Assembly (NCBI GenBank): GCA_003599255.1
Contig: QZJF01000002.1
Coordinates: 1-45,519, forward strand
Length of the DNA stretch: 45,519 bases
Reading direction: 5' to 3'
DNA from: a candidate division WWE3 bacterium
GTDB taxonomy: Bacteria > Patescibacteriota > WWE3 > UBA101185 > UBA10185
The translations under genes were made by a program, and so were the position numbers. The first letter of the stretch is position 1. The number at the start of each line of letters is the position of its first letter. Below are positions 17,716-37,432 of the stretch, in pieces. Below the pieces are notes generated by a model. The model did no database searches. It saw only the letters and a program-made list of their open reading frames with translations, and was not told where the DNA came from.

Positions 17716-17734
17716 GCCCTATAGGGCTTTTTTT
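17716..17734 (+). terminator. palindromic terminator between the polysaccharide operon and the VWA gene
   Basis: GCCCTATAGGGC followed by TTTTTTT. It most simply ends the GH8-BcsA-GT39 operon. The core also contains CTATAGG, the sequence found next to several promoters downstream. Confidence 0.7.
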
Positions 17735-17756
17735 GTATCTGAATTTAATAAATTAT

Positions 17757-19394
17757 ATGAATAAAAATATATTAAAAACCGCATTCGTTCTTTCCGCAAT
17801 CTATTTATTTTCCGTTACCGTCAAGGCTGACGACCCGGTTTTATCCACGTCCAGAAAACTTAATCCGTATGCCATAGATCAGTGCTCCACAAGCGAGGTA
17901 ATCCTGGATGTACAGGTGCGTAATGAAGAAGCCCAGGCCAGAGAAAAACTGGACATTGCCCTAATTATGGACCATTCCTACAGCATGTTTGAGTATGGTG
18001 ATGACCGTATGGATGAGGCCCAAATTGCAGCCGTTGAGTTTATAGATAATCTTGACCCGGCTTATGATTATCTCGCGTTAATAAGATTCTCAGAAGATGC
18101 TGAAACCCAAAAGGGCTTAAGAAACTATTATCATTCAATCAAGGACACCATTAATAATTATTATCTTGATGATTTTTCGGGTTATACAAATATCTCAGAG
18201 GCAATAGAGGAATCTATTGATGAACTTACCTCGGATGAATCACGTGATGATGCCATAAAAATAGCTATTCTTTTATCCGACGGAGGAGTAAACAGACCTT
18301 TGAATAACGGAAAAGAAGACATTGGTTATGCCAAATCCAAAGCCATGGATAGCGCAGAAAACGCCCGGGATGAAGATATCATTATTTACACCATAGCATT
18401 AAACGGTCCACAGAATACAGATAAAGAACTGCTCGAAGACATAGCCGATATTACCGGCGGGGAGTCATTTGAGGCAGATGATCTTGACGAACTTATTGAT
18501 GCCTATTCAGATATTGCTTCTACTTTAACCAACATCTTGGGTACAAATGCCGAAGTATACGAGAAGATTCGTAAAGAATTCAATTACGTAAACGGAAGTG
18601 CCGTTCCCACTCCTAACCAGATAAAACACAATGGCGATGGAACTACCGAACTCAGATGGAGTTTCGGAGGACTTGAGGCAGGGGAGCATATAACCGTGAG
18701 ATACAGAATTTCACCTGATGATTCCGGCAATGATCAGAAAATAGCCGTTTATCCTGATTCCGCAATTCAATTTAGAGACAGATGGGGCGGATATCAGAGT
18801 TATCCTTTCCCTCAGGGCGAACTTGATGTCAGTGTCAAAGATTGTTCACCGGACAAAGATGATGACGATGATAACGACGACGATGATGATGACAATGACA
18901 ATGGAGACAATGATGATGACAACGATGGAGATGATAACGACAATGATACCGGTTTGTTATCCGCATTTGGTACAGGCGGACCGTTTTTTCCCGGAGATGT
19001 AGCCGGTGAATCAACTCAGGGATATCTCAGTTCAGGCAGCGAACCAACATCATTTATTGGCGGGTTAAAAAACATTTTCAACGGGGATGTTGCTGGTGCC
19101 GGTTTGTGTGTGGACCCAAGATTCTGGTGGCTGATGTTTGCAGTCCAGGCCATTTTACATGCAATCATTTATATGATTCTAGATAGAAAATTTGTTTCAA
19201 AGCGAAAGTTATTCTATGTAGGACAGATATTGTTAACCGCACTTGCCATGTACTGGTTCTGGAAACACTATTGTCCGCTTTGGGACGTATTGGTAGCGAT
19301 GATAATAGGCTGGCTGGCGACAGGTTTAACTATCAGAAAAGGGAAAAGATTGGTAGCAACAGATCCTGAACAATTGGGTTTGCTTGATAACTGA
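17757..19394 (+). CDS. secreted/membrane-anchored von Willebrand factor A domain protein
   Basis: 545 residues from the ATG at 17757 (a TTG at 17733 is in frame but lies in the T-tract of the terminator). It has a signal peptide, then a VWA domain with a complete MIDAS: Asp72-x-Ser74-x-Ser76 (MDHSYSMF), Thr in SGYTNIS, and Asp in LLSDGGVN. A beta-rich domain follows (TELRWSFGGLEAGEHITVRYRI), then a linker made almost only of Asp, Asn and Gly, and finally three C-terminal transmembrane helices. The metal-binding domain would be displayed outside on a calcium-binding-like stalk. It is likely an adhesion or surface-assembly protein. It lacks the VPEFG tail of its neighbours. Confidence 0.82.
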   Translation: MNKNILKTAFVLSAIYLFSVTVKADDPVLSTSRKLNPYAIDQCSTSEVILDVQVRNEEAQAREKLDIALIMDHSYSMFEYGDDRMDEAQIAAVEFIDNLDPAYDYLALIRFSEDAETQKGLRNYYHSIKDTINNYYLDDFSGYTNISEAIEESIDELTSDESRDDAIKIAILLSDGGVNRPLNNGKEDIGYAKSKAMDSAENARDEDIIIYTIALNGPQNTDKELLEDIADITGGESFEADDLDELIDAYSDIASTLTNILGTNAEVYEKIRKEFNYVNGSAVPTPNQIKHNGDGTTELRWSFGGLEAGEHITVRYRISPDDSGNDQKIAVYPDSAIQFRDRWGGYQSYPFPQGELDVSVKDCSPDKDDDDDNDDDDDDNDNGDNDDDNDGDDNDNDTGLLSAFGTGGPFFPGDVAGESTQGYLSSGSEPTSFIGGLKNIFNGDVAGAGLCVDPRFWWLMFAVQAILHAIIYMILDRKFVSKRKLFYVGQILLTALAMYWFWKHYCPLWDVLVAMIIGWLATGLTIRKGKRLVATDPEQLGLLDN

Positions 19395-19521: not shown

Positions 19522-19980
19522 ATGAAAAAAGTTTTTGATAGTTCCACTGCCTCAAAAATCTCAGTATTTGGTTTAATATTCGCATTAACAATCGCCCCGG
19601 TATTTGCGGAGGCTCCCGATCTTGTAGGAGTTTTCGGTAAAGTTACAGGACCCGGCGGCAACGTAAGCGGAGCTGATGTAGAAGTAATCTGCGGAGACCT
19701 AAGTGATAACACAACCACAAACGGTGGCGGCAGTTATTATGTTACTTTCAATCAAACCGAGTTGTGCCACGAAGGTACAATCGTAACGGTCAATGCCTCC
19801 AAGGAAGGCCTATCCGGTTCCAATACAAGTGCAGTAGCTGAGGATCCCAGAAAAGCCAAAGTCGACGTTTTCATCTCTGCCAACGAAGTTCCTGAGTTCG
19901 GTCTAATCACCGGAGCAGTAGCAGGTCTTGCATCGGCAGGTTCTTATCTTGCATTAAAGAGAAGAAGCAAAAAAGCATAA
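19522..19980 (+). CDS. secreted carboxypeptidase-regulatory-like protein with C-terminal VPEFG sorting tail
   Basis: 152 residues. The N-terminal signal peptide ends near VFAEA. A single beta-sandwich of the CarboxypepD_reg type follows (VFGKVTGPGGNVSGADVEVIC, then GGSYYVTF), with two cysteines (ICGD, ELCHEG) that could pair. Residues 122-152 are a tripartite sorting signal: EVPEFGL, a hydrophobic helix rich in Gly and Ala, then KRRSKKA. This fits the PEP-CTERM style of exosortase substrate, closest to the PEFG-CTERM form known in Thaumarchaeota. It is a paralogue of the next gene and lies near the exosortase gene, its likely processing enzyme. Confidence 0.82.
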   Translation: MKKVFDSSTASKISVFGLIFALTIAPVFAEAPDLVGVFGKVTGPGGNVSGADVEVICGDLSDNTTTNGGGSYYVTFNQTELCHEGTIVTVNASKEGLSGSNTSAVAEDPRKAKVDVFISANEVPEFGLITGAVAGLASAGSYLALKRRSKKA

Positions 19981-20000
19981 TATAGGTTATAATGCCTATA
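19981..20000 (+). promoter_or_regulatory. -10 box bracketed by a TATAGG inverted repeat
   Basis: TATAAT (19988-19993) lies between TATAGG (19981-19986) and CCTATA (19995-20000). The next ATG is 9 nt after the -10 box. This could give the second VPEFG protein its own nearly leaderless, regulated transcript. Confidence 0.45.
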
Positions 20001-20002
20001 AG

Positions 20003-20458
20003 ATGATAAATAAGAAACCCGGTCTGAAAACACTTAATATCGGAATCAGATTTTTGATGTTGGGTGTTTTGATGGCCGGGTTTATTTTTGCCCAAAGTTT
20101 TGAGGTTAAAGGCAGGGTTAGAGATGCCTTAGGAAATGATATTCCTCATGCGATTGTTACGGCCGTCTGCGGTGAGCAGGTCAAAACTACCGAGGCCGCG
20201 GGGAATGGGTTTTATTCATTTAACTTCAGTACAGACGATTGCCCGGAAGGAAGCCCCCTTGTTGTTACAGCGGAAGATCCCGAGACAGGTGAAACAGGTC
20301 AAAATAGCGGAACATTCGGTGGGGCAACCCAGGTATTAGACATAGTTATAGGAGGTGCAGAAGTTCCTGAGTTCGGATTGGTTGCCGGAAGTATTGCAGC
20401 TCTTGCCTCCGCCGGTGCATATCTTGCTCTAAAAAGAAAAGCCTCCAAATCCCTCTAA
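20003..20458 (+). CDS. second secreted protein with C-terminal VPEFG sorting tail
   Basis: 151 residues, paralogous to the preceding gene over its full length. A signal anchor (FLMLGVLMAGFIFAQSF) is followed by a CarboxypepD_reg-like beta-sandwich (VKGRVRDALGNDIPHAIVTAVCG, then GFYSFNFST) with two cysteines. Residues 120-151 repeat the sorting tail: EVPEFGL, a Gly/Ala-rich helix and KRKASKSL. The upstream protein has the same EVPEFGL start and a near-identical SAGxYLALKR end. After cleavage the mature domain of about 95 residues would be attached to another surface group. Confidence 0.82.
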   Translation: MINKKPGLKTLNIGIRFLMLGVLMAGFIFAQSFEVKGRVRDALGNDIPHAIVTAVCGEQVKTTEAAGNGFYSFNFSTDDCPEGSPLVVTAEDPETGETGQNSGTFGGATQVLDIVIGGAEVPEFGLVAGSIAALASAGAYLALKRKASKSL

Positions 20459-20465
20459 ACCAGCA

Positions 20466-20501
20466 CTATAGGTTGACTATATCTTACTTTTTTGTTATAA
20501 T
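20466..20501 (+). promoter_or_regulatory. CTATAGG-tagged consensus promoter of the zinc-ribbon membrane gene
   Basis: CTATAGG (20466-20472) abuts TTGACT (20473-20478); a 17-nt spacer leads to TATAAT (20496-20501), which also has the TGT extension. The leader holds a weak CACG...CGTG pairing followed by TCTTTTTTC (about 20518-20547). Confidence 0.75.
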
Positions 20502-20571
20502 GACAGCATCCAAATTTCACGTACCCAAAAAATCCGTGTCTTTTTTCTAGATGTAGAAAGGGAGATTTGAA

Positions 20572-20973
20572 ATGTCGCAGAGAAATCAACCTTGTCCGCA
20601 GTGCGGAGCACCTTTGGATGATGATGGCTACTGCCGTTACCACCAAGGCTCACGTGCTGAAGTACCTGTCACTGTTTCCCCGGCGGAAACTTACTTCATT
20701 GTGAAACCGACGCCACGACTCATTCCGGAAGCATTATTGCCGGTAGCGCTGGTACTGTTTATGATCAGTGTTTTCTATGTATTTCTGGGAAACACTCTGG
20801 AGCTTTACGAGATCGGCGAACTTACCAATCTGGTCATGCTCCTCGTTAAAGCAGTAACCGCATGGATAATTGCGATCTACAATTTCGAACGAAACAAGGT
20901 TCTGCTTTCCGTGCTGTTTTCGATCAACGCGGTCCTGGGCACCCTCGTTTTCGTACTGAATCTGATTGGCTAA
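20572..20973 (+). CDS. small zinc-ribbon membrane protein of unknown function
   Basis: 133 residues with an AAAGGGAG ribosome site. The N-terminus has a short zinc-ribbon-like knuckle (CPQCGAPLDDDGYCRYH), then three transmembrane helices (LLPVALVLFMISVFYVFL; TNLVMLLVKAVTAWIIAIY; a third at the C-terminal end). I do not recognise the family. It has its own CTATAGG promoter and terminator, and G+C-rich codons compared with the flanking genes. It lies between the VPEFG substrates and the exosortase, which suggests but does not show a linked role. Confidence 0.72.
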   Translation: MSQRNQPCPQCGAPLDDDGYCRYHQGSRAEVPVTVSPAETYFIVKPTPRLIPEALLPVALVLFMISVFYVFLGNTLELYEIGELTNLVMLLVKAVTAWIIAIYNFERNKVLLSVLFSINAVLGTLVFVLNLIG

Positions 20974-21014
20974 CGCAAATTTTCTGCATCTCCGGAAAAT
21001 ACCCGGCGTTTCAA

Positions 21015-21032
21015 CCTATATTTCAATATAGG
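21015..21032. repeat. perfect inverted repeat in the leader/intergenic region
   Basis: CCTATAT-TTCA-ATATAGG, a 7-bp perfect palindrome arm on each side. It contains the TATAGG half found in nearby promoters. It may be an operator or part of the 3' end of the preceding transcript. Confidence 0.4.
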
Positions 21033-21093
21033 GGAGTTTTCGATAAAACTGCAATACCCAAGCAAATAATGGAAATTGTTTGTTTAGGAGAAG

Positions 21094-21122
21094 AAACGAC
21101 TCGGGAACGGGTCGTTTTTTTT
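21094..21122 (+). terminator. intrinsic terminator after the zinc-ribbon membrane gene
   Basis: A 10-bp stem (21094-21103 with 21108-21117, one G-U) closed by a GGAA loop and followed by a run of T. It separates the zinc-ribbon gene from the exosortase gene. Confidence 0.88.
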
Positions 21123-21147
21123 GAAATTTGTTGTAAAATCAGCCTAA

Positions 21148-22071
21148 ATGGTGAAATATGGTAAAGGTTTCAAAAACTTAATAGCAAGAATCCTGGTCTT
21201 TTTGGGGCTTTTTGTAGTGATATCCGGAATTACCGGTCCCTGGATTATAGGCACCAAATTGTTGTATGGTTTTCATTTTTATATATATGGCAACATGGGC
21301 AAGGTGCTTTTGCTGGGGTCAATAGCCTTTCTTATTCTGGCCAAAGATAAAATCACAAGCTTTCCATACTTTAAATTCAATAAATCAAGCCTGTTTTTTA
21401 TTTTGCTCGGTTTTGCGTTTATTCCGGTATTTTTTGTACTGGCCAAACAGCTTTTGTTGTTTTCCGCATTTAATGTTCATTTAATGTTGTCGCTGTATAC
21501 TCACTTTATTTTGCTGTTTTCAGTGTTTTTGGTGGGGTACGGTGTTTTTGGCAATGACCTTATCAATTACTTTTTCCGCGAATATTGGCGGGAGATCAAG
21601 ATCTGCCTGGGGTTTGCGGTTCTGATGTATTTTGCCATTTTTCAGGTATGGAAGCTTTGGCCGATTTTCAGCAAAATCGTGCTGTATGCCGTAACTTTTT
21701 TGTTTGGTCTGACGTACACCAATGTGACGGTTCATCAGCCTTATACCCTGGTGGTTAATAACTTTGCGGTCAAGATACTACAGGCATGTTCAGGTGTTGA
21801 TTCCATGTTTTTGTTCACCAGTTTATATGTATTTATTGGGCTTGTAGACTGGAAGGTTTTAAATCACAAAAAGTATTTTTTGCTGTTTCTGCCGGCGTTG
21901 GCAGGGCTCTTTCTGGTCAATATACTCAGAATCTACCTTATTATATTAATAGGAGTTTGGGGGTATCAGGAGCTGTCATTGAAACTATTCCATACCTACG
22001 CCGGGTTGCTGTTTTTTGTGGCATATTTTTTGGTTTTTCTCAAACTCAGTTATTCCAGGATTCGAAAATAA
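21148..22071 (+). CDS. exosortase/archaeosortase-family cysteine transpeptidase
   Basis: 307 residues, almost wholly membrane: about 8-9 helices. The catalytic triad of the family is in place in its usual order: Cys214 in ILQACSGVDSMFLF, Arg261 in LVNILRIYLII, and His282 in LFHTYAGLLFFVAYF. These enzymes cleave C-terminal tripartite sorting tails outside the membrane and pass the protein to another molecule. Two genes with such tails (EVPEFGL-helix-KRR) lie 1-1.6 kb upstream, so they are the natural substrates. No Shine-Dalgarno is seen; TAAAAT lies 8 nt before the ATG. The N-terminal half is divergent, so the named exosortase subtype cannot be given. Confidence 0.88.
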   Translation: MVKYGKGFKNLIARILVFLGLFVVISGITGPWIIGTKLLYGFHFYIYGNMGKVLLLGSIAFLILAKDKITSFPYFKFNKSSLFFILLGFAFIPVFFVLAKQLLLFSAFNVHLMLSLYTHFILLFSVFLVGYGVFGNDLINYFFREYWREIKICLGFAVLMYFAIFQVWKLWPIFSKIVLYAVTFLFGLTYTNVTVHQPYTLVVNNFAVKILQACSGVDSMFLFTSLYVFIGLVDWKVLNHKKYFLLFLPALAGLFLVNILRIYLIILIGVWGYQELSLKLFHTYAGLLFFVAYFLVFLKLSYSRIRK

Positions 22072-22079
22072 CACAACCA

Positions 22080-22115
22080 CTATAGGTTGACATATCAACA
22101 TCTTTACAATACAAT
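22080..22115 (+). promoter_or_regulatory. CTATAGG-tagged consensus promoter, copy 2
   Basis: CTATAGG (22080-22086) abuts TTGACA (22087-22092), then a 17-nt spacer and TACAAT (22110-22115). It drives the first of the duplicated four-helix membrane genes. Confidence 0.75.
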
Positions 22116-22162
22116 TCGGTTTATCGTTTCCTATTACGCATAATAAAAAGGAGAGGAAGATT

Positions 22163-22633
22163 ATGATGTCAAAAAGGGACTCAAAGGTCCTGCTGTTAGG
22201 ACTGATTTTGGACTTTTTGATCGTCCTGGTCCTGTTTTCCACCGCGTTAAACACATTTATGGGAGCTGTGCTTTACGTGGCGCATTTCTTTGTAGGGGGG
22301 ACACTTGTCTTCCTTGTCAAAGCATGGGTTATTGACGGAATCCGCGATTGGGATTCATTAAGTAACCTCGCCGATTATTTCTGGATTAAGACCTTTGCCT
22401 GGACGATTATCTCCGGTGTTGCAGTGGTCTATAATCCATTCGTGTCTGCTCCCCCTGTTTTCAATGCAGTCGGCATTGCATGGGCAGCAATCAAGGGTGT
22501 TTTTCTCTATACACCGCCCATGGCATATCTGTTCTCTATGGGTATGCAGGATAAGCTTTTGGAGCTTGATGAAAGAATCCGAAAGATTATTGCCGAGCGA
22601 AAGGAAAGGGAAACTCAAGATTCTGAGATCTGA
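22163..22633 (+). CDS. small four-helix membrane protein, family member 1
   Basis: 156 residues with an AGGAGAGGAAG ribosome site; ATG at 22163 or 22166. Four transmembrane helices are followed by a charged coiled tail (MQDKLLELDERIRKIIAERKERETQ). Family unknown to me. It shares its layout with the two genes downstream: two helices, a VKAWVIDG-like turn (KW-type motif), a short loop, two more helices, then a charged cytosolic helix. It is enclosed by a CTATAGG promoter and the first copy of a 44-nt repeated terminator, so it is a one-gene unit. Its position right after the exosortase gene suggests a partner role, by inference only. Confidence 0.72.
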   Translation: MMSKRDSKVLLLGLILDFLIVLVLFSTALNTFMGAVLYVAHFFVGGTLVFLVKAWVIDGIRDWDSLSNLADYFWIKTFAWTIISGVAVVYNPFVSAPPVFNAVGIAWAAIKGVFLYTPPMAYLFSMGMQDKLLELDERIRKIIAERKERETQDSEI

Positions 22634-22647
22634 CACTGCTGCAGAAA

Positions 22648-22691
22648 ACGCGTTGATAGCTGACCAACCGGTCGCGACCCAACGCGTTTTT
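22648..22691 (+). terminator. 44-nt repeated terminator, copy 1
   Basis: Outer stem ACGCGTTG (from 22648) with CAACGCGT, inner GACC...GGTC, and a long T-run. The whole 44 nt is repeated exactly at 23709-23752. Confidence 0.88.
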
Positions 22692-22719: not shown

Positions 22720-22756
22720 CTATAGGTTTGACTATCGAGCCCGAAATACGTATAAT
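22720..22756 (+). promoter_or_regulatory. CTATAGG-tagged consensus promoter, copy 3
   Basis: CTATAGG (22720-22726), one T, TTGACT (22728-22733), 17-nt spacer, TATAAT (22751-22756). It drives the second four-helix unit. Confidence 0.75.
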
Positions 22757-22819
22757 CCTTACCATCAAGCAATCACACTAAAAAAAGCATATAGGAACTA
22801 GAAGAAAGAGGAGGTTTTG

Positions 22820-23278
22820 ATGGATCTCAAGACTACCGAGTTTCAGATCATTAAGGGTTATTTCTATTCCCTGGGTGTCACGATCCTGTTTCTGATGGGG
22901 GCGCTTTTCTTCAACGCGCCTGATACCGTCTTATACATCATATTGGCAATTCAGCTGCTGATTGGTGTGCCAATGATGGTGCTCATCGAAAAATGGATTG
23001 TTGCCGAGGGTCGGAGAAAACCAGCCACTCGCAAGCTGGCCAAGATGTTCTGGCCGGGTGTACTTGGCATTGTGGCATTGTTCTACGCGCTGGTTTTGAT
23101 CGTGACCTTTCCTAAGTTACCGCCCGGATCGTCGCTGTTCGACGTCTTATACGGCTTTGTACTGGGTTCGATATCTTTTGTTCCCTTACTGGCCTTTGGC
23201 GGCGCCGTGATGGTCATGAGAAAACTGGAGCGGGTCTATAAGCAAGAAGAGGAGGATTTTTTCAGATGTTTGACCTGA
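22820..23278 (+). CDS. small four-helix membrane protein, family member 2
   Basis: 152 residues from the ATG at 22820, behind a GAGGAGG ribosome site (a TTG just before it is in frame but too close to the site). Four membrane helices; the turn after helix 2 reads VLIEKWIVAEG, matching VKAWVIDG of the upstream gene, and the C-terminal helix is charged (VMRKLERVYKQEEED). Family unknown to me. The 3' end overlaps the start of the next gene by 13 nt, so these two are coupled. Confidence 0.7.
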   Translation: MDLKTTEFQIIKGYFYSLGVTILFLMGALFFNAPDTVLYIILAIQLLIGVPMMVLIEKWIVAEGRRKPATRKLAKMFWPGVLGIVALFYALVLIVTFPKLPPGSSLFDVLYGFVLGSISFVPLLAFGGAVMVMRKLERVYKQEEEDFFRCLT

Positions 23279-23700
23279 TAAGGTTGGCGTTTAGAACAAT
23301 ATTTCTCCTGTCTACCAGGTTTATCCCGCTGATAACTGCCTTTTATCTGGTGGAACATGAGCCGGCGCACCGTTTTATAGACAACCTGATGTACTTTCAG
23401 TTTCTATATTGTGCCGGAATCACATTATCCATCTGGGTAGCATCGTGGCTGATGTCCCGGAAGATATCCAAAGCAGGAGGTTACGTAGGATTTGCCGATA
23501 CCATGGGAGTACCGTGGGTTCTTACCACTGTACTTGTAGGTGAGCCGCTGTTGTTTCTGCTTTTCTTGCCGGAAAATCCTCTGGCGGGCAGATATGTTGC
23601 GGCAGGAATGCTGTGGTTCTTTCTTCCTATGGCTGTTGCGCATTTGGAATACACCGAGCGTGAAGTGTCCCAAAAGGCGTCCGAATCCAAGGAAGAATAG
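23266..23700 (+). CDS. small four-helix membrane protein, family member 3
   Basis: 144 residues starting inside the 3' end of the previous gene, with GAGGAGG about 10 nt before the ATG. Four membrane helices, the turn after helix 2 is WVASWLMSRK, and the C-terminal tail is charged (HLEYTEREVSQKASESKEE). The same layout as the two preceding proteins suggests a divergent tandem family. It ends 9 nt before the second copy of the 44-nt terminator. Confidence 0.7.
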   Translation: MFDLIRLAFRTIFLLSTRFIPLITAFYLVEHEPAHRFIDNLMYFQFLYCAGITLSIWVASWLMSRKISKAGGYVGFADTMGVPWVLTTVLVGEPLLFLLFLPENPLAGRYVAAGMLWFFLPMAVAHLEYTEREVSQKASESKEE

Positions 23701-23708
23701 TTCAAAAG

Positions 23709-23752
23709 ACGCGTTGATAGCTGACCAACCGGTCGCGACCCAACGCGTTTTT
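23709..23752 (+). terminator. 44-nt repeated terminator, copy 2
   Basis: Identical over 44 nt to 22648-22691: stem ACGCGTTG with CAACGCGT and an inner GACC/GGTC stem, then TTTTT. The exact match suggests recent duplication or gene conversion. Confidence 0.88.
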
Positions 23753-25064: not shown

Positions 25065-26558
25065 TTATTTGATTATACAATCAACTTTAGTGGTAAGTCC
25101 TAGTACATTTTTAATAGTTTCAACATTAATTTTTAACGGTTCAATTACTATACCTACAACTGAATTTTCAGGTACTTGAACTGTGAATTGGACTGCACCA
25201 TCTCGGACGCTTACTGATTTCGAGCATGTTAAAGATTGGCCATCACTTTCAGACGAAGCTTGATACGCTTTTATTGTTGAAGTGCCAGAATCAGGTAAAT
25301 TTTTTAAGTTTATTAGCACTTCTTTTGTGCTTTTCTCATTTGAGATAATAATTCCACGCTCTCCTTTCATGTTTACGAATCCTAATGAAGGCGTATTATC
25401 TGAATTTGTTTGATATATCTCGCTTTGACCCTTCCCCAATGCTAATGTTACAGATAGAAGCTTCCATGTTTTACCTTGGGGTAGTAGCTCAACTTTATCG
25501 TTTCTTCGCACGTAAAATCCGAATACATCTTCATTCTTTATGGGATTATATGGGTCGTAAAGACTCATAGAGTAATAATTTGCGGCAGCAACACCGCCCT
25601 TTAAAAAACTAATAAGTTTTGTACCCGTATAAGGTATAGCGAGATTTGAATATATATAGGGGTTGGCTTTGTATTCAGAGGATTCGTTCCATTCGTCGAT
25701 GAAAATTGGGAGATCCAAATTTTCACGTTCCAAAACTTTTTTGAATGTGTACCAAGATGGTTCATCCTTATCATAGCTGTGAAGCGAAATACCGTTTAAA
25801 AGTGTACTTGGGACATTAGTAATTAGATGATCCAAAATATCGGTTTTTTCTGGTTGTGCTGCAGCAGGACCGATTATTGGGATAAGCCTGTTATCGTTTT
25901 CTTCTTTATCTACGCTACGTATTGCTTCTGCCGCAACACTGAACATCTTAGTGTAAGCTTCGTGTCTTGATAATTTAGAGTTGTTGATATTGAAGAAATT
26001 TTTGTTATCCGGCTCATTCCAGATTTCTATGTAATCTATGTATGGCCTATAAATTCTATAAGTCTTTTTTACAATATCAAAGAATACACCCCAATCACTT
26101 GGAATACTGTATTTTCCTGAATATCCAAGCCATTCGGGCATATAAGCAACAACCCCGATTACTTTAATATTTCTATTTTTTGCGTTTTGGTAAACGTTTT
26201 TTATATGTTCAATACTATTTAAATTCCAGTTAGACGGGTCCTGAATATTACTTACATTGTTCTTATAGCTTTCTACCGTTATATCTCCTTGCAATATATT
26301 TTCTATTAAGAACCCTTTTCTTATTACTGTAACGCCTGCATCAGCTATGGCGTCCCACCCAGCTTGGTCTGTAATTTCCGGTGTTTGCGCCCCACCAAAA
26401 ACTAATGGTGACCCATTAGTAGCTTTGCTGTCGAAGTCAACTTCAATAATTTCTAACTCCTTTGCAAGTACGGTAGATGTTTGGTAATCTGGTGCATTAT
26501 TGTGCACATAAAAATAGACCAATGAAGTGATCATAAGTAATGTGAAAATACTTCTCAT
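25065..26558 (-). CDS. secreted clan-A glycoside hydrolase (GH39/GH5-like)
   Basis: 497 residues with an N-terminal signal anchor. The TIM-barrel catalytic pair is visible: acid/base Glu182 in EIWNEPDN and nucleophile Glu289 in FIDEWNES. A C-terminal beta-sandwich domain follows (GIIISNEKSTKEVLINLKNL). The pattern of WNEP and a later DEW-type Glu fits clan GH-A, nearest by eye to GH39 or GH5 families. It probably trims or degrades the glycan made by this locus. TAATAT lies 6 nt before the ATG on the minus strand, so it may have its own leaderless promoter although it is the last gene of the glycan locus. Confidence 0.75.
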   Translation of the reverse strand: MRSIFTLLMITSLVYFYVHNNAPDYQTSTVLAKELEIIEVDFDSKATNGSPLVFGGAQTPEITDQAGWDAIADAGVTVIRKGFLIENILQGDITVESYKNNVSNIQDPSNWNLNSIEHIKNVYQNAKNRNIKVIGVVAYMPEWLGYSGKYSIPSDWGVFFDIVKKTYRIYRPYIDYIEIWNEPDNKNFFNINNSKLSRHEAYTKMFSVAAEAIRSVDKEENDNRLIPIIGPAAAQPEKTDILDHLITNVPSTLLNGISLHSYDKDEPSWYTFKKVLERENLDLPIFIDEWNESSEYKANPYIYSNLAIPYTGTKLISFLKGGVAAANYYSMSLYDPYNPIKNEDVFGFYVRRNDKVELLPQGKTWKLLSVTLALGKGQSEIYQTNSDNTPSLGFVNMKGERGIIISNEKSTKEVLINLKNLPDSGTSTIKAYQASSESDGQSLTCSKSVSVRDGAVQFTVQVPENSVVGIVIEPLKINVETIKNVLGLTTKVDCIIK

Positions 26559-26673
26559 TTTTTAATATTACACCATTGGCACATTTATGTTTGAGAGACA
26601 GAACAAGAACGGTGAGAAGATTTAATCTATGTATCCTTAATAATTCTTAGTAGGCTCAAAGTGATAATGATAT

Positions 26674-28962
26674 TTATTTAAATATCAAAGACTTTCCGTT
26701 ATTATAAATCGTGTTTTTATTTTGGTATAAGAAATCCGTAGGATATTTATATAAAATCCTTCTGTCCTTGTATATCTCGTGGTATTTATTCTTCAAGGTA
26801 TTTATTGAACTTGAATAGACATAAGAGGTCTTGTCGATTATCTCTGGGAAAATATACTCGACAACATTATTATTTAATTGTCCATACGCTCTTAAACGTA
26901 ACTTAGACATGCTATCTGAATTGATTGAAGATTTGTGATCTAAGTTGTTTTTTAACCAAAGTATTGAGACTTTGTCACTGGTGAAAGTATAAAACTCATC
27001 ATAATTAGTTCCAGTATTGTTAAGTAAGGCAGATGGGACCGTCCCACCAATTATTTGATACAAAAAACCGGAATTAATCAAAAAAAACAATATTAAAATT
27101 ATTTCTAAAGTTATCATATAGGAATGCACTTTATAACCATAGCCGATTATTAGTTCCCCCCCAACTATTGTAGTAATTGATAATATCACAAGCGTTTGAA
27201 TATAAAATCTGCCTATTGGATAGCTAAGTGATAAAATAGGCATGACAGTCATCAGGAAGAACAAAACTATAAAAACAAGACTAAACAAACGATATTCGAT
27301 ACCAAAACCGTATTTTTTTGAAATGACTATATAAATAGTTCCAATTACAAGAAAGACCTTTATGAGTTTTTTTACCGACTCAAAGAATACAATGATGTAT
27401 CCATGGTATGGTGAAGGTATATTACTCGCTCTTCCCTCCGGATTGACAAGAATTCTTTGTGAGTAGTCAAATCTTTCAGTGTACAAATTATCCGCACCTT
27501 TCTTTCTGGAGATTTGATCAATAACTTCCAGATTGTGTTTTTCAACTAATGCTATGTTATTTAAGGCATTTGGTTTGTAGAATATATTAAATTGATCTAT
27601 TGGAGATCCCTGTACGGTAATTAAATCCTCATCAAGCATAGACCTTACGTTTGTAACTGACTCCTTTATGGTGTTTACCAGACCGTGGGAAGTATCTGTA
27701 ACTTGAAAATACCATATGTAAGCAACAAAATATAGAATGATAATTGGAACAAGATTAAGGTGATGTGTCTCGTTACACTTGATATTTTCTAATTTCCCCC
27801 CCGTTAAACTTAATTGATTAGAAATTTTTATATATACAGCTTGTAAAATATATGTAACCAGGAATACAACGAGCGCAATGTAAGTTGTCGAATAATGGGA
27901 TAAAATCATTGCAATCCCAAATATTATAAATAGTATGTTTTTGTGTACTCGTGTAGTCTGTTTTTCAAATAATATCAGTATCATTAATGCAAAGAACAAC
28001 AATGCTATTTGTTGCCGTACTAATATAGAAATCTCAAACATAAAATTATATGTTGACAAAAAAAGAAAAGAGCCTAAAAAAGATAAACGTGGATTCAAAA
28101 ACTTCGAGTAAATGAGATATAAAGAAACGGGTGCAAAAGAAAAAAGTATTGGGTAAACCAATTTAAATATAAATTCATCATTGATATTCAGGAACTGGTC
28201 AATTATCGTAGGTAATATTGTAATGCTCAGACATGCATTATATGTGTTTCTTAAGTGCGCTATGTCCCAAAGTAAGGATTGTTTGGTCAACTGGAACACG
28301 TCGTACTCAATGAATATGTCCCAACCAGATACATGAAAACTTCTCAGAGAGTACAGTAGTAAAATTGTTAGTGATAATGTATAGATAGAGTACAGATGCA
28401 ACCCAATAGCAAATATTTTGTACTTCATAATGAAAAGTACATATAAAGCCATTGCGATTATTGTTAACATCAGGAGCAAATTGGTGCCGTGATTATTTAA
28501 AACAATTGTTCCAGCGATACCCAAAGCAAGGATTATTGGAGGTAATATGTAAATGAAAGAATTTAATTCAAGATTAATCTTAAGATCTATACGAAAAGTG
28601 GGATTGTCGTGATTTCTTACAACTAGAAGACATAAAGTTAAGACAAGTAGATCAAATACAGGCAGTAGCACATTTAAAGATAATGGAGGTGTTTGGATAA
28701 TAAGTGGGAAGACAGAATTGATTATTAAACCTATAATTATCTGGTAAGCCAAACTAAGTCCCAAGGAATATACGAATAAGCTTTGTGAGGATCTAAGTTG
28801 GTTAAACAAAATTAAAGTCAAGAAGCCAGGTATAAAGAAAATTGTGAATAAGGTTAACAATTCCCTAAGGTAGATGAAGTTAATATCCGCAATAATCAAG
28901 AAGTTAACAAAAGTCAGCAGTAAAATGATCGATTTAATTAATTGGTTTTTCTGATATGACAT
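26674..28962 (-). CDS. large polytopic membrane protein (GT-C/DUF2206-like)
   Basis: 762 residues with about 18-20 membrane helices and a soluble C-terminal segment. The N-terminal FIPGFLTLILF helix pair resembles DUF1616/DUF2206 proteins common in archaeal and CPR glycan loci. One large outside loop (about residues 430-520) is hydrophilic. It may be a glycan polymerase or a GT-C transferase; I see no definite catalytic motif. The start overlaps the 3' end of the upstream GT4 gene by 29 nt. Confidence 0.65.
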   Translation of the reverse strand: MSYQKNQLIKSIILLLTFVNFLIIADINFIYLRELLTLFTIFFIPGFLTLILFNQLRSSQSLFVYSLGLSLAYQIIIGLIINSVFPLIIQTPPLSLNVLLPVFDLLVLTLCLLVVRNHDNPTFRIDLKINLELNSFIYILPPIILALGIAGTIVLNNHGTNLLLMLTIIAMALYVLFIMKYKIFAIGLHLYSIYTLSLTILLLYSLRSFHVSGWDIFIEYDVFQLTKQSLLWDIAHLRNTYNACLSITILPTIIDQFLNINDEFIFKLVYPILFSFAPVSLYLIYSKFLNPRLSFLGSFLFLSTYNFMFEISILVRQQIALLFFALMILILFEKQTTRVHKNILFIIFGIAMILSHYSTTYIALVVFLVTYILQAVYIKISNQLSLTGGKLENIKCNETHHLNLVPIIILYFVAYIWYFQVTDTSHGLVNTIKESVTNVRSMLDEDLITVQGSPIDQFNIFYKPNALNNIALVEKHNLEVIDQISRKKGADNLYTERFDYSQRILVNPEGRASNIPSPYHGYIIVFFESVKKLIKVFLVIGTIYIVISKKYGFGIEYRLFSLVFIVLFFLMTVMPILSLSYPIGRFYIQTLVILSITTIVGGELIIGYGYKVHSYMITLEIILILFFLINSGFLYQIIGGTVPSALLNNTGTNYDEFYTFTSDKVSILWLKNNLDHKSSINSDSMSKLRLRAYGQLNNNVVEYIFPEIIDKTSYVYSSSINTLKNKYHEIYKDRRILYKYPTDFLYQNKNTIYNNGKSLIFK

Positions 28963-30139
28963 TATTTTTACTATCTAGGGCAATTTTGTATACAGATACG
29001 AGTCTTTCTAAATGCTTTTGCATATCGAAGGTGTCACTGGCGAATATCCTTGCTTTTACACTTATATCTTGAAGCCTGTCAGTATTAGTAATTAGATTTT
29101 CTACGACGTCAGCAATCTGTTTATAATCGTTAGTTTTAACAAGGTAACCTGTTTCGTTGTTATTAATTAATTCTGGTATGCCCCCAATATCACTTGCGAC
29201 AACAACTCTGCCAGTAAACATTGCCTCAATGATTACGGTTGGAAGATTTTCTGGCGTGATTGAAGGGCATACAACAACTGTATTGTTGTGGTAAAGTTCT
29301 TTAATAGCTGAATTTTGGACATGGCCTAAAAACGTTACTGAGGATTTAATACCTAAAGAATCCGCCAAATTACTAAGTTTTTCCTTCTCCGGACCACCTC
29401 CTGCGATGTTAAATCGCATGTCTGGGAATTTTTTTAATAAAATTGCCGCACTCTTTAAGAAGTTGTCAACACCTTTTATTTTCAATAAATTTCCAACATA
29501 TAAAATACATCTAAAGTTATTTATTCTAGAATACGGTAAAGGGGTTATACCATTGTAAATAGTACTAACGGGATTGTAGCCGCTTTTAGTTAGGAGATCC
29601 CTCATGAATTCACTTGGGGCAATGAAATAATCAATATTCTTAATAAATTTCCTCAAAAATGCATATTTGAGTTTTTCCGGCCAAAATCTGAGCCAACCTA
29701 CACAACTTTTACATTTAGAATTAAAGTAATACCCCGTGTGGTACTCTAAGTTTCCTCTAGGGCATATTAGTTTGTATTCATGAGCAGTTACAACTGTTGG
29801 CACTCTCTTTAATGGTATTAGTATTGAGGGAGATGCATAATTAAGGAAATTATTAATGTGAACGACATCTGGCTGAAAGTTTTTTAGAACTTTTCTCAAT
29901 AAAATAATTGCACTTGGGTTAAAAAAGTAGGTTAGGTATCTCAGAACAGGGTGTTTTTTAAACGATTTGAATATAAAGGTATTATCATCGAAAACACTCT
30001 CTATTAGCGCATCGCTCCCCATAATCTTGACGATGTGCCCCATGCTTTCAAGGTGATACTTGACATTATACATATATACAGCTGCTCCTCCATATTCTCC
30101 CAATTCATCATTTATCATAAGTATACGAAGTTTCTTCAT
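28934..30139 (-). CDS. family 4 glycosyltransferase with cysteine insert
   Basis: 401 residues from the ATG at 30139, which makes a 4-nt ATGA overlap with the upstream GT2 stop; a longer in-frame ATG at 30157 lies inside that gene. GT-B fold: N-terminal GEYGGAAVYMYNV, a Cys insert (CPRGNLEY, then CKSCVGW) that may bind metal, LYVGNLLKIKGVDNFL, and the donor-site EX7E-like segment near PENLPTVIIEAMFTGRVVVASD. Transfers a nucleotide sugar to the growing lipid-linked glycan on the cytosolic side. Confidence 0.88.
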   Translation of the reverse strand: MKKLRILMINDELGEYGGAAVYMYNVKYHLESMGHIVKIMGSDALIESVFDDNTFIFKSFKKHPVLRYLTYFFNPSAIILLRKVLKNFQPDVVHINNFLNYASPSILIPLKRVPTVVTAHEYKLICPRGNLEYHTGYYFNSKCKSCVGWLRFWPEKLKYAFLRKFIKNIDYFIAPSEFMRDLLTKSGYNPVSTIYNGITPLPYSRINNFRCILYVGNLLKIKGVDNFLKSAAILLKKFPDMRFNIAGGGPEKEKLSNLADSLGIKSSVTFLGHVQNSAIKELYHNNTVVVCPSITPENLPTVIIEAMFTGRVVVASDIGGIPELINNNETGYLVKTNDYKQIADVVENLITNTDRLQDISVKARIFASDTFDMQKHLERLVSVYKIALDSKNNVISEKPIN

Positions 30140-31050
30140 TTGTTTTTTTTCTCCCAATATGATTTCTGATTACTTAAGAATTTACACACGGGTAATGGTA
30201 ATTGTCGATATCTTTTACCAAGAGAAATTGACACACACTTAATAGTGTCAACAATAAGCAGAACAAATAGAAATTTAACCTTAAGTTTTTGCATAAAAAA
30301 TAAGTATTTTTTTGCAATTCTATTGATGTCTTTACGATTTGAGTTATTTGGAATGTTCATTCTATATATCTGACTGAAAGATACACCCTGATCAAAACCT
30401 ACTCTCGCAATTCTACACAAGTTGAAACTGTGTGAATGTATAACTGCCGCCTCCGGTTCGTACAGGATACTGTATTCTCTATCCAGCATTGAAAGAGCCC
30501 AGCCTAAATCCTCACTAACAATTACATCCTCAGGGTAGGGATTATTTAGAATCATATCTTTTCTCACAGCAGAGTTTACATCAGAATAAACAACACTATA
30601 TTTATAATAATTAGTTATATCAATAATCCTTCTTATATTTGGGTAATCTTGATTATATCCATAGTTAATAATCTGGTTCGAACCCTCTTTTGGTATTTGC
30701 CTACCAAAAACACCTGCGACACAACTATCTTTGAGACCTCGGATTAAATTTTGTAACCAATATCTATGCTTTGGAATGGCGTCTTGTGTTAGATACACAA
30801 CATAATTTCCCCTAGCTAGTTTAGCCCCGAGATTTCTGGTTCTTCCGTGTCCAAATTCAATTCTTGGTATTTTAACTAGCCTAATCGGGTACTCTTTTGC
30901 GTATTCAAGACTATTATCATCCGACGTCGAATCTATAATAATCACCTCAAAGTTAACGAATTTTTGACTAAATACCATATCAACTACTTTTCTAAAGGTA
31001 GTACCAGGGTTAAGTGTAAGAATTATTATCGAAGCTTCAATTTCTTTCAT
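30136..31050 (-). CDS. family 2 glycosyltransferase (rhamnosyltransferase-like)
   Basis: 304 residues. GT-A fold with EASIIILTLNPG at the N-terminus, VIIIDSTSDDNSLEYA, the FGHGRTRNLGA block and LTQDAIP in place of DxD. The FGHGRTRN...LTQDA combination is typical of rhamnosyltransferase-like GT2 enzymes. It overlaps its neighbours at both ends (14 nt with the upstream gene, 4 nt in the ATGA with the downstream gene), so it is part of one operon. Confidence 0.85.
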   Translation of the reverse strand: MKEIEASIIILTLNPGTTFRKVVDMVFSQKFVNFEVIIIDSTSDDNSLEYAKEYPIRLVKIPRIEFGHGRTRNLGAKLARGNYVVYLTQDAIPKHRYWLQNLIRGLKDSCVAGVFGRQIPKEGSNQIINYGYNQDYPNIRRIIDITNYYKYSVVYSDVNSAVRKDMILNNPYPEDVIVSEDLGWALSMLDREYSILYEPEAAVIHSHSFNLCRIARVGFDQGVSFSQIYRMNIPNNSNRKDINRIAKKYLFFMQKLKVKFLFVLLIVDTIKCVSISLGKRYRQLPLPVCKFLSNQKSYWEKKNK

Positions 31051-32173
31051 CTAGTAGCTCCTTATATATTGATTCAACTTTACTTGCTATATTTTCCCAG
31101 CTGTACTTGTTAACTACTAATACTCTGCCCCTATTACCCATCTCCTCAGATATCTTCTTATTTTGTAGGATGTTACAAATGGATGATGCAATTGCTCTCG
31201 AATCTTTTGTTTTTATTATGAGTCCACAATTCGCCTCAAGAATACTGTCACTTATACCTACTATGTCTGTTGCAATTACTGGTGTTTTGCATGCTAGGGC
31301 TTCCACCAATACAAGTCCAAAACCTTCTATATTTATAGATGGTAATACCAGTACTGCCGCTCTATTGTAGAATGGTGTTAGCTCAGCATGTCCAACTTCC
31401 CCAACAAACTGTACATTGTTTTGTATGTTTAGTTCCCTTGACAATTCTACATATTTGTCTCTTAACGAACCTCCACCTACTACCAGCAATTTAATATCAG
31501 GTATATCCACGCGGGCTATCTTAACAGCTTTGAGTAAGTAATCTAAGCCCTTGAATTCGTGATATTTATCCAATATTGAAACAAACAGTATTGTTTTTTC
31601 TTCCCTTGGAATACCCAAGGGTTTGAATAAGTCGCAGTCTACGCCATTTGGTAGCGTTACAATTTTATATTTATAATTTTTGAGTAAATCTTTAGTATTG
31701 TTAAACGCTTTTTCCCACCCCTCATTAACTATAATTATTTTATCAACAAGACTTAAAGATATTAAAAATATCGTATGCAAATATAATTCTGTTAGTAACT
31801 TACTAAGGAATCCGCTCTTATTCATATCATTATGAATCGTTATTACTGACTTTCTTTTCAATAATTTAGCCAAAAGTATGCTTATATCAGAAGTCCACGG
31901 TGTGGGCATATGAGTGTGTATAATGTCGAAATCGTTTTTTAATATTTCAATGGGAAGAAAGAGAGTTATATTGGTGTTTGTTATTTTGAACCACGATTTT
32001 AAGCGTTTAATGTCAATTCCAAAAGCTTCTTTCAGTGTTGAGTTTGGATCTTTAGCACAAATAACCTTTACTCTATGGTTTTTTTTAACGAGTACTTTGG
32101 AAAGGTACAAAACATGATTTGAAACCCCCCCGATATATGGAAAAAAAAGATTGGGCGTGTGAATAATATTCAT
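31037..32173 (-). CDS. family 4 glycosyltransferase
   Basis: 378 residues with a GT-B fold: FPYIGGVSNHVLYLSKVL, DIIHTHMPTPW, VTLPNGVDCDLFKP, LLVVGGGSLRDKYVEL and the C-terminal EGFGLVLVEALACKTPVIATD with the catalytic Glu pair. A standard cytosolic retaining transferase for surface glycan assembly. Separated by about 48 nt from the pyruvyl transferase upstream. Confidence 0.9.
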   Translation of the reverse strand: MNIIHTPNLFFPYIGGVSNHVLYLSKVLVKKNHRVKVICAKDPNSTLKEAFGIDIKRLKSWFKITNTNITLFLPIEILKNDFDIIHTHMPTPWTSDISILLAKLLKRKSVITIHNDMNKSGFLSKLLTELYLHTIFLISLSLVDKIIIVNEGWEKAFNNTKDLLKNYKYKIVTLPNGVDCDLFKPLGIPREEKTILFVSILDKYHEFKGLDYLLKAVKIARVDIPDIKLLVVGGGSLRDKYVELSRELNIQNNVQFVGEVGHAELTPFYNRAAVLVLPSINIEGFGLVLVEALACKTPVIATDIVGISDSILEANCGLIIKTKDSRAIASSICNILQNKKISEEMGNRGRVLVVNKYSWENIASKVESIYKELLDERN

Positions 32174-32221
32174 GAATTTAATCCAATCGAAGTCTTTATC
32201 TTAATTTAATACATGTTCCAT

Positions 32222-33391
32222 TTAACTAATAAATTTTCTGAGAATTTTTGGACTCAGTTTAGATTCAGCCTTGAATTTCATTGATTTAGTAGTGTAGGAA
32301 CGTTTAATTTCTTTTTGATCTTTCCAAACCCTGTCAATATAACTTGTGAGACTCTTATAGGTTAGTTCTTCGAATGATATTTCTTTATCGATTTCGTTAA
32401 TTAATTCTATGAAATCGTGACACTTTTGAGCATAATTAATTGATATTAATGGGGTTCTATTGGAAAAAGCAAAAATTATGGAATGCAATCTCATACCAAG
32501 GAAGATATCCATCTTACCCATGATACTAAGTATTTCTCTTGAATTGTACTTTGGAAAATCTATTACTTTTACTTTATCATAGTCTGCAATGTAGTCCATT
32601 AGTTCATGATTTATTTCTTTGTCCCAAGAACCAAAGATAAATAATACAATTTGTGCTTTATACTTATGTGAGGCGTATTTTAGAGAATCTCCAATTACTC
32701 TGACAAAATCATTTCTGCTTATTTTAGATTTTCCTCTCAAAAATGAATCAACATAACAGTTAATATTTACACCTATGGTGCGGGTCCCAACATTTTCGTT
32801 GCCAAGTAATTCGTTAAGCTTATCGTTATCTACTTGTGGTAAAAGCAAAGCAATATCTGAAGTTACATAGCGTTTTTCTTTACTAACACCCATATATTCT
32901 GCAAGGTGTCCTGAGTTTTTTTCCCTTAATATCATAAAATCCAGCTGTCGCACCATATTACTAATCAGTTTCTCACCTAGTTTAGTATATATAGGCCCAA
33001 TACCAGCTGAGAAAAGACCAATTTTCTTTCTCATTAATTTTGAAACCACTATGAAGGGAAGCATCCCTAGAAATGTATTCTGTTTAAAGTTTAGGAGTTT
33101 GTATTCATAGAAAAGTGACCCGGTAATAATTACTAAATCTGAAATGCTAATCAAATGTATTAATTTAATATAATTCCAAATCACCCTAGGGATATTAAAG
33201 TTTATCGTAAGATTACAAGTCAGTATTTTGTATCTATCTTGATACCTAGAGATATTCCTTGTATTTCTGGATGGAATAATATATTTGACGTTACCAAACT
33301 CCTTAGTTAGTTCAATAAGTGTTGATTCTAAGATTGCTTCGTCGCCTGCATTTATTCCACTAAATGCCCCTAAAATAAATATATTTAGCAT
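32222..33391 (-). CDS. polysaccharide pyruvyl transferase family protein (CsaB-like)
   Basis: 389 residues of the PF04230 type: ILGAFSGINAGDEAILESTL at the N-terminus, ITGSLFYEYKLLNFK, GLFSAGIGPI, and the C-terminal MDIFLGMRLHSIIFAFSNRTPLISINY block with the conserved Arg-Leu-His. It adds a ketal-linked pyruvate from phosphoenolpyruvate to a glycan sugar, giving negative charge; in Firmicutes this modified glycan holds SLH-domain S-layer proteins. No SLH domain is seen in this window. The start overlaps the upstream gene by 7 nt. Confidence 0.85.
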   Translation of the reverse strand: MLNIFILGAFSGINAGDEAILESTLIELTKEFGNVKYIIPSRNTRNISRYQDRYKILTCNLTINFNIPRVIWNYIKLIHLISISDLVIITGSLFYEYKLLNFKQNTFLGMLPFIVVSKLMRKKIGLFSAGIGPIYTKLGEKLISNMVRQLDFMILREKNSGHLAEYMGVSKEKRYVTSDIALLLPQVDNDKLNELLGNENVGTRTIGVNINCYVDSFLRGKSKISRNDFVRVIGDSLKYASHKYKAQIVLFIFGSWDKEINHELMDYIADYDKVKVIDFPKYNSREILSIMGKMDIFLGMRLHSIIFAFSNRTPLISINYAQKCHDFIELINEIDKEISFEELTYKSLTSYIDRVWKDQKEIKRSYTTKSMKFKAESKLSPKILRKFIS

Positions 33392-34524
33392 GTTACCCTC
33401 TCAATGTAATTATTAACAATTTCTGACCAATCGTTACCCCTTACTTCATTTATGCATGCTTCCCTACTGAATTTATCCTTTAACAATCTTAGTATTTCTG
33501 AGGTAAGTGAATATATGTTAATTTCTACAGCATAACTGTTTTGACTACTAAGTAGATCTTGTGATGCGTTAAGCGGGTGTTTGGTTAGTACAACTGGGAT
33601 TCCACAAGCCTGAGCCTCCAATACTGTAACTCCAAATCCTTCCCTTTCTGAAAGTGAAACAAAGACTTTAGAAGCTTTCATCAAGGCAAATACTTTATCA
33701 TGACTTTCAATTCTTCCTTTCAAAAATATATTGTTCTCAAGTTTCATTTCTTCCACTAACTTTTCCAGGCTTTCTTGTTCCGGGCCTTCTCCGATTATAG
33801 TACATCGTATATCTGGTTTTGATTTAACTATTTCGGCGACAGATTTGATTAATAAATCTACATTCTTATGTTTAAGTAATCTTCCTACATAGATTATGTC
33901 GGATGTTTCCTTGTCTGGTTCGACTGATTGAACTTTGTCAAACTCTATACCTAACGGTATCGTAGTGATTTCCTTTTTGCTTCCAAGAATGTTTCCAAGT
34001 CTTTTTGAGGTGTGGTTTGAGTTAGCTACAATCATATCCGGCAACAAAACTGTTAGTCTCTCCAAAATATATGCAATTTGTCCTTTGAAATTACCCAAAT
34101 ATTCCTGCCAATACTCTTTACCCCAAACCTCATGCCACACCGCATACATTTTCTTTCTTTTCAGCCAACAAACTATTCTCATTGAGAAAATAGGGAAGTA
34201 GGGCATATGATCCACTTCGATAACATCCCAATTCTCTTTGATCATTTTGAAACATGCCAATCCAAAAAGGATTCCTTGTTTTATTGATCTTCTGGGGCCG
34301 GCGTAAAGAGGAATTAACGGGGATATCGCATGCAGATGCACTCCGTTTTCCGTTCTATCTCTTTCTCCATTCCACCAGTTCATGCAATATATGTGAACGT
34401 CATAACCCTTTTCAGCTAATCTTGTGGAAATTTCATACAAACGCTTTTCTTTACCCCCTTTGTTATAGGGCCATATAGCGTCTGATACAAATGCGATTTT
34501 TTTGGCGATAGATTGCTCTGGCAT
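33385..34524 (-). CDS. family 4 glycosyltransferase
   Basis: 379 residues, GT-B fold: PYNKGGKEKRLYEISTRLAEKGYDV, VIEVDHMPYFPIF, TTIPLGIEFDKV, IYVGRLLKHKNVDLLIKS, CTIIGEGPEQESLEKL and EREGFGVTVLEAQACGIPVVLTK. It belongs to the same operon as the pyruvyl transferase (7-nt overlap) and follows the GT2 gene with 2 nt between. Confidence 0.9.
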   Translation of the reverse strand: MPEQSIAKKIAFVSDAIWPYNKGGKEKRLYEISTRLAEKGYDVHIYCMNWWNGERDRTENGVHLHAISPLIPLYAGPRRSIKQGILFGLACFKMIKENWDVIEVDHMPYFPIFSMRIVCWLKRKKMYAVWHEVWGKEYWQEYLGNFKGQIAYILERLTVLLPDMIVANSNHTSKRLGNILGSKKEITTIPLGIEFDKVQSVEPDKETSDIIYVGRLLKHKNVDLLIKSVAEIVKSKPDIRCTIIGEGPEQESLEKLVEEMKLENNIFLKGRIESHDKVFALMKASKVFVSLSEREGFGVTVLEAQACGIPVVLTKHPLNASQDLLSSQNSYAVEINIYSLTSEILRLLKDKFSREACINEVRGNDWSEIVNNYIERVTC

Positions 34525-36710: not shown

Positions 36711-36766
36711 AGGATCTTAAATGATCTATAAAAAGACACTCACAATTTTATAAAAGAAAGTCGGCT

Positions 36767-36797
36767 TGATTGCCGGCTTTTTTGTTTTGGTCAGTAC
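36767..36797 (+). terminator. second leader terminator-like hairpin
   Basis: AAAGTCGGC (36767-36775) pairs with GCCGGCTTT (36782-36790) with one G-U, loop TTGATT, T-tract to 36793 and beyond. It lies about 40 nt before the TasA-like start codon. Confidence 0.65.
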
Positions 36798-36831
36798 TTT
36801 GTTTCTGCCCCGAAAAGGAGGTGAAAACCAA

Positions 36832-37365: not shown

Positions 37366-37378
37366 GATATATTATTTT

Positions 37379-37419
37379 GGGCCGGCTGCACAAGAAGGAC
37401 GCTTTTTGCGCAGCCCCCC
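37379..37419 (+). promoter_or_regulatory. intercistronic hairpin between the TasA-like and SipW-like genes
   Basis: GGG..GGCTGC (37379-37389) can pair with GCAGCC.CCC (37410-37419) around a 20-nt loop. No T-tract follows, so it may set the ratio of the two products or protect the upstream mRNA end. Confidence 0.4.
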
Positions 37420-37432
37420 AAGGTAAGTTTAT

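Follow-up and report, generated by a model that had tools for sequence, protein, structure and literature searches.

Organization of the locus

The window, a stretch of 45,519 nucleotides from a candidate division WWE3 bacterium, contains two genes for small secreted proteins, an exosortase gene downstream of them on the same strand and an adjoining cluster of polysaccharide genes (Table 1). The three open reading frames lie exactly where a preliminary description of the locus had placed them, and the probable CPR host that it proposed is indeed a member of the Patescibacteria, the phylum of Candidatus Saccharibacteria.

Table 1. Features of the exosortase locus and its surroundings in the window.
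Feature	Position	Strand	Details
Block holding the module, approximate, ~21.8 kb	17676-39520		Absent from the same-genus genome G001
Substrate 1, 152 aa, secreted	19522-19980	+	Signal peptide, transthyretin-like beta-sandwich, C-terminal sorting tail; from ORF, homologues, AlphaFold and PDB matches
Substrate 1 C-terminal tail	19888-19977	+	VPEFGLITGAVAGLASAGSYLALKRRSKKA; consensus over 17 tails
Substrate 2, 151 aa, paralogue	20003-20458	+	Architecture as substrate 1; weak PF13620 CarboxypepD_reg match, 2e-4
Substrate 2 C-terminal tail	20363-20455	+	VPEFGLVAGSIAALASAGAYLALKRKASKSL; consensus over 17 tails
Interposed cassette	20464-21122	+	Promoter-like site; 133-aa zinc-ribbon and membrane protein (20572-20973); strong terminator-like hairpin (21089-21122)
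Exosortase, 307 aa	21148-22071	+	Predicted multi-helix membrane protein; from TIGR04178/PF09721 and Cys/Arg/His alignment
Catalytic-type residue C214	21787-21789
Catalytic-type residue R261	21928-21930
Catalytic-type residue H282	21991-21993
Polysaccharide flippase, Wzx type, PF01943	23799-25049	+	Downstream of exosortase
Glycan cluster	25065-34524	-	GH39-like hydrolase, DUF2206 membrane protein, glycosyltransferases, polysaccharide pyruvyl transferase (32222-33391)

Two secreted paralogues share a C-terminal tail

Substrates 1 and 2 are paralogues (35% identical) with a signal peptide-like N-terminus. As the preliminary description had read them, both end in EVPEFGL, a Gly/Ala helix and a basic cluster, KRRSKK in substrate 1 and KRKASK in substrate 2, and the 79-nt stretch encoding the tail forms a direct repeat (75% identical). 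In the AlphaFold model of the substrate, residues ~35-113 fold into a seven-strand beta-sandwich (pLDDT ~90-97), and from the motif onwards the chain is a C-terminal helix of low confidence. Using Foldseek, the model matched transthyretin-like/carboxypeptidase-regulatory domains in the PDB and, among other entries, an S-layer protein from the SlaA/SlaB assembly. PF13620 was matched by 8/14 substrates at E<=0.01 (best 3e-6), weakly so by window substrate 2 (22 bits against a cut-off of 32.3). Two cysteines, C57 and C82 in substrate 1, are invariant across the aligned substrates, hence a disulfide is likely. In the tail motif P124 is invariant and E125 and G127 are nearly so among the 14 aligned substrates, although their identity to the window copy is otherwise no more than 25-37%.

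Over the 1.10 Mb of the own genome we counted 13 instances of the PEFG codon pattern and six of a backwards-pattern control, and substrates 1 and 2 are the only secreted proteins among the 13 that end in a PEFG-helix-basic tail. A chance origin of the window tails was ruled out on this count. The scan covered exact PEFG and a substrate profile, and the profile found no third full-length substrate homologue in the genome.

The membrane protein is an exosortase of an unnamed subfamily

The window enzyme matched TIGR04178 at 1.1e-12 (48.1 bits, cut-off 23 bits) and PF09721 at 5.3e-10. Its earlier assignment to the exosortase family by Cys214/Arg261/His282 is thereby confirmed, each residue lying where it had been described. 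It is the single exosortase of its own genome (90% complete), which, with no third full-length substrate present, bears out the picture of one enzyme with two dedicated substrates. The structure model of the enzyme is of moderate confidence (pLDDT 73.5), and a PDB sequence search and a fold search with this model returned no match.

With the window enzyme, no NCBIfam subfamily model reached its cut-off. After the generic signature the best subfamily model was TIGR04162, exosortase E (46.2 against 150 bits), and the PEP-CTERM/XrtA-type models TIGR02602 (34.9 against 105.55 bits) and TIGR03109 (22.4 against 208 bits) likewise stayed below threshold. Archaeosortase models recognize only one or two subfamily members and miss the window enzyme. 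The PEFG-CTERM model TIGR04296 (cut-off 25 bits) left the window tails unmatched at E<=10. Because no subfamily model passes and TIGR04296 does not recognize the tails, the enzyme belongs to the superfamily as a member of an unnamed subfamily, and the locus is, by sequence comparison, an unnamed exosortase/CTERM system within that superfamily. The view that the system could be an undescribed one is supported in so far as named subfamily models cover neither enzyme nor tails. The suggested kinship of the tails to the thaumarchaeal PEFG-CTERM signal was not borne out, given the silence of TIGR04296 and a family motif that is looser, [VIL]P[EV][FYLV][GS].

Enzyme and substrate recur together in other genomes

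A TIGR04178 search detected exosortases in 18/380 genomes of the phylum. One of these, G091, encodes an orthologue-like enzyme (34% identical) with six tailed neighbours. The single window exosortase as query found only its own genome among 57 relatives and no further locus in GTDB contigs. An alignment of the window and G091 enzymes led to four more loci in GTDB contigs, two in named Candidatus Saccharibacteria and two in MAGs named only bacterium. A class-wide search added G469; its other strong match, G545, is one of the two Saccharibacteria already found. Six further genomes therefore carry an exosortase of the same subfamily, 31-36% identical to the window enzyme.

At all seven independent loci the exosortase lies beside one to six secreted ~150-aa substrates homologous to those of the window. 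The nearest substrate is <=23 bp from the exosortase gene, or overlaps it, in 6/6 other loci, and 689 bp away in the window. All 17 of the 17 tails at these loci fit [VIL]P[EV][FYLV][GS], a helix and a basic cluster. TIGR04178 is matched by all six members of the exosortase alignment, and Cys/Arg/His are invariant in 7/7 of the subfamily and present in 24/25 of all patescibacterial homologues aligned. In a tree of these 25 exosortases the seven-member group received 94/92 and appeared in 92% of bootstrap trees, which is only moderate support, and the window enzyme sits on a long branch. The preliminary description had named a tail paired with the enzyme in no other genome, or a triad varying among homologues, as grounds for giving up its proposal; both points have come out in its favour.

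Co-occurrence was assessed in 438 genomes, 393 of the class of G091 and 45 of the class of the window. Strong exosortase matches (E<1e-100) and full-length substrate matches (best per genome, E<1e-38) fell into exactly the same 4/438 genomes, from four families. The naive chance of this coincidence is 6.6e-10, a guide only, the genomes being related. Two extra exosortase-profile matches (E 4e-4 to 8e-4) are short and partial, and the weaker substrate-profile matches (E>4e-7) mostly cover the domain alone. The four genomes contain no full-length homologous substrate away from the locus, and none of the 44 other members of the window's class has an exosortase of this type.

Other exosortases of the phylum have tailed neighbours as well. 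Secreted proteins carrying VPEFS, IPEFS or VPFFS tails lie beside exosortases at L040 (11532-13730), L042 (10784-12226) and L049 (10775-12178); several tail types thus coexist in the phylum. A second exosortase type of about 180-250 aa, represented by ten proteins in the tree, carries the motif WNC[IL]GWQS...FHDY, and proteins nearby end in PFLP, a helix and basic residues (L041, 2843-7765; L046, end 382; L048, end 1120). This is possibly another undescribed enzyme/tail pair.

The module lies in a putative glycan island

The glycan locus reported next to the enzyme does adjoin it and includes a polysaccharide pyruvyl transferase. Flippase family members are found near the exosortase in 4/6 other loci and a pyruvyl transferase within ~3 kb of it in three; taken together, flippase and/or pyruvyltransferase genes are near the exosortase in 6/7 loci. 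That six other genomes have the enzyme-substrate pair too, again next to sugar-polymer genes, shows the protein-sorting system to be real; it is as yet unnamed.

In the same-genus genome G001 both flanks are present and colinear, the left one as far as the PMT gene (79% identical) and the right one at 69-87% identity, and everything between about 17,676 and 39,520 is missing. Hence the ~21.8 kb block looks like a mobile glycan island. Gain of a glycan/sorting island is the simplest reading; loss of the block in G001 would be the alternative.

The cassette interposed between substrates and exosortase is missing from the other loci and therefore probably stands outside the core pair. It is one of three cassettes around the exosortase (20464-21122, 22076-22691 and 22720-23752), each with promoter, gene(s) and terminator and encoding small multi-helix membrane proteins; none of the three was seen in the other loci. 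The first two begin with the identical sequence CACTATAGGTTGAC. An identical 36-bp terminator-like repeat closes the last two (22650-22685 and 23711-23746), and the genes starting at 22163 and 22817 encode distantly related paralogues (21%).

Further genes were observed in the neighbourhood. Inside the island, directly upstream of the substrates, a secreted VWA-domain protein is encoded (17733-19394); its linker is a long Asp/Asn repeat, and its C-terminal region is a membrane domain of several helices. At 36766-38431 lies a gene for a small secreted protein, TasA/camelysin-like by eye (no Pfam match), then one for a signal-peptidase-like protein with weak S24/S26 matches and a long acidic C-terminus. 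Paralogous ~680-aa pectate-lyase-like proteins (PF12708) form arrays beside the module at L036 (14887-19901) and at L057 (12240-19248), the two genomes being G091 and that of a named Saccharibacterium.

Proposed mechanism and alternative explanations

What the computations show is membership of the exosortase family, the catalytic-type residues, the architecture of the tails, the dedicated pairing and co-occurrence of enzyme and substrate, and their linkage to glycan genes. We propose a small dedicated exosortase/C-terminal-tail system, with a probability of roughly 0.8, in which the enzyme would remove the tail and pass the transthyretin-like domain to the surface. Sec would export the substrate, and the C-terminal Gly/Ala-rich helix with the basic tail on its cytoplasmic side would keep it in the membrane. 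The Cys/Arg/His site is expected to face outward, at the membrane surface, where the exosortase would attack the chain at the VPEFG motif or directly beside it and remove the tail. The domain would then be handed to a surface acceptor or to surface polysaccharide from the linked gene cluster, or be released. In ArtA, Cys173/Arg214/Arg253 are essential and lipid is attached after tail removal (PMC9263693, PMC7157517); PEP-CTERM proteins of cyanobacteria and floc-forming bacteria work with extracellular polysaccharide, covalent linkage being unproven there (PMC12188702). Because of these two precedents, the enzyme is expected to cleave at the motif and then to transfer or release the domain; we infer the cleavage, where exactly it falls, a transfer instead of a release, and the acceptor. 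The product of the adjacent glycan cluster would be the leading candidate for the acceptor, at somewhat under even odds; a membrane lipid follows closely and simple release comes last.

Some observations count against the proposal: the terminator-bearing cassette that separates substrates and exosortase in the window only and makes their co-transcription there uncertain, an enzyme model of only moderate quality that matched no solved fold, and the small number of co-occurring genomes (4). A lipid-synthesis partner, such as PssA, was not found adjacent to the exosortase.

Were the tails ordinary uncleaved membrane anchors, with the exosortase acting elsewhere or being a neutral neighbour, a helix followed by basic residues would be just what is expected, as these are also typical of a plain stop-transfer anchor. 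Such an anchor, however, does not need the pre-helix motif that is conserved in 17/17 tails, and it leaves the restriction of substrate and enzyme to the same four genomes, and their proximity in 7/7 loci, without a cause; we regard it as improbable. A laterally acquired bacterial copy of the thaumarchaeal PEFG-CTERM/archaeosortase system is suggested by the letters PEFG in both window tails and by DUF2206, a domain common in archaea, in the linked locus. TIGR04296 finds no match in the tails at E<=10, however, archaeosortase models match one or two subfamily members without the window enzyme, and every one of the nearest relatives found belongs to Patescibacteria or to an unclassified bacterial MAG. 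A thaumarchaeal origin was rejected on the first two of these grounds, and archaeal acquisition as such appears very improbable. A chimeric or mis-binned contig, which would make the CPR assignment false, could be argued from the absence of the enzyme in 44 other class members and from the shift in base composition inside the block. The genes flanking the block are nevertheless 66-87% identical to those of same-genus G001 and colinear with them, and named Ca. Saccharibacteria carry the same module. Mis-binning was rejected because both flanks are colinear with G001, and its likelihood is close to negligible.

A more serious alternative, though still an unlikely one, is that the enzyme acts purely as a protease, which would set the proteins free in the polysaccharide matrix with no transpeptidation. 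The PEP-CTERM precedent would agree with this, whereas the archaeal family member attaches lipid after cleavage. Returning to the dedicated sorting system, its most specific version would be a hitherto undescribed system, in which a distinct CPR exosortase subfamily with a VPE[FY]G-type tail couples small transthyretin-fold proteins covalently to a surface polysaccharide, or to the lipid carrier of that polysaccharide, which the same horizontally moving cluster produces; this we consider conceivable but doubtful.

Implications and comparison with known systems

CPR cells are largely epibionts, and their surface decides attachment to the host. To our knowledge, little is known of surface-protein sorting in these cells, and the acceptor of bacterial exosortase reactions has still to be identified. 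One enzyme with one to six tiny homologous substrates beside putative polysaccharide genes makes an unusually tractable system, in which a laboratory host would permit joint study of the enzyme, its substrate and the genes for the candidate acceptor. If covalent coupling to polysaccharide from a moving cluster were true, it would provide an epibiont with a transferable surface coat. We found no description of exosortases in Saccharibacteria or other CPR in the open-access literature, subscription journals being mostly outside the search. Exosortases have been portrayed as a Gram-negative feature (PMC12188702).

Among known systems, Archaeosortase A/PGF-CTERM of Haloferax is alike in its catalytic-type Cys and Arg with a third residue, its motif-helix-basic tail and its surface-protein substrates. 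The third residue, however, is His here and Arg253 in ArtA (PMC9263693), the motif is another one and there is no PssA neighbour. Thaumarchaeal PEFG-CTERM shares the letters PEFG, which precede the helix in some of the tails, but TIGR04296 misses the tails and no archaeosortase subfamily model picks up the window enzyme. The exosortase E/protease, VPEID-CTERM system (TIGR04162) scores best of all named subfamilies over the family as a whole (up to 3.2e-20) and also has a VPE motif; here the protease is a separate gene where present, and the 307-aa window enzyme is unfused. Homologous CAAX-protease-like genes (PF02517) lie 0.35-3 kb upstream of the pair at L056 (4846-5700), L058 (6637-7476) and L059 (7095-8615), which recalls exosortase E, annotated as exosortase/protease; no such homologue was found in the window. 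With the PEP-CTERM/exosortase system (EpsH/Xrt) of Gram-negatives (TIGR02602/TIGR04178/PF09721) the window locus has in common the enzyme superfamily, the Cys/Arg/His residues, the tripartite tail, the substrate signal peptide and the linkage to exopolysaccharide genes. It differs in its tail, VPE[FY]G rather than PEP, in that no named Xrt model passes, and in its CPR host. Its substrates are few, local and mutually homologous, whereas PEP-CTERM proteins have been called highly divergent (PMC12188702).
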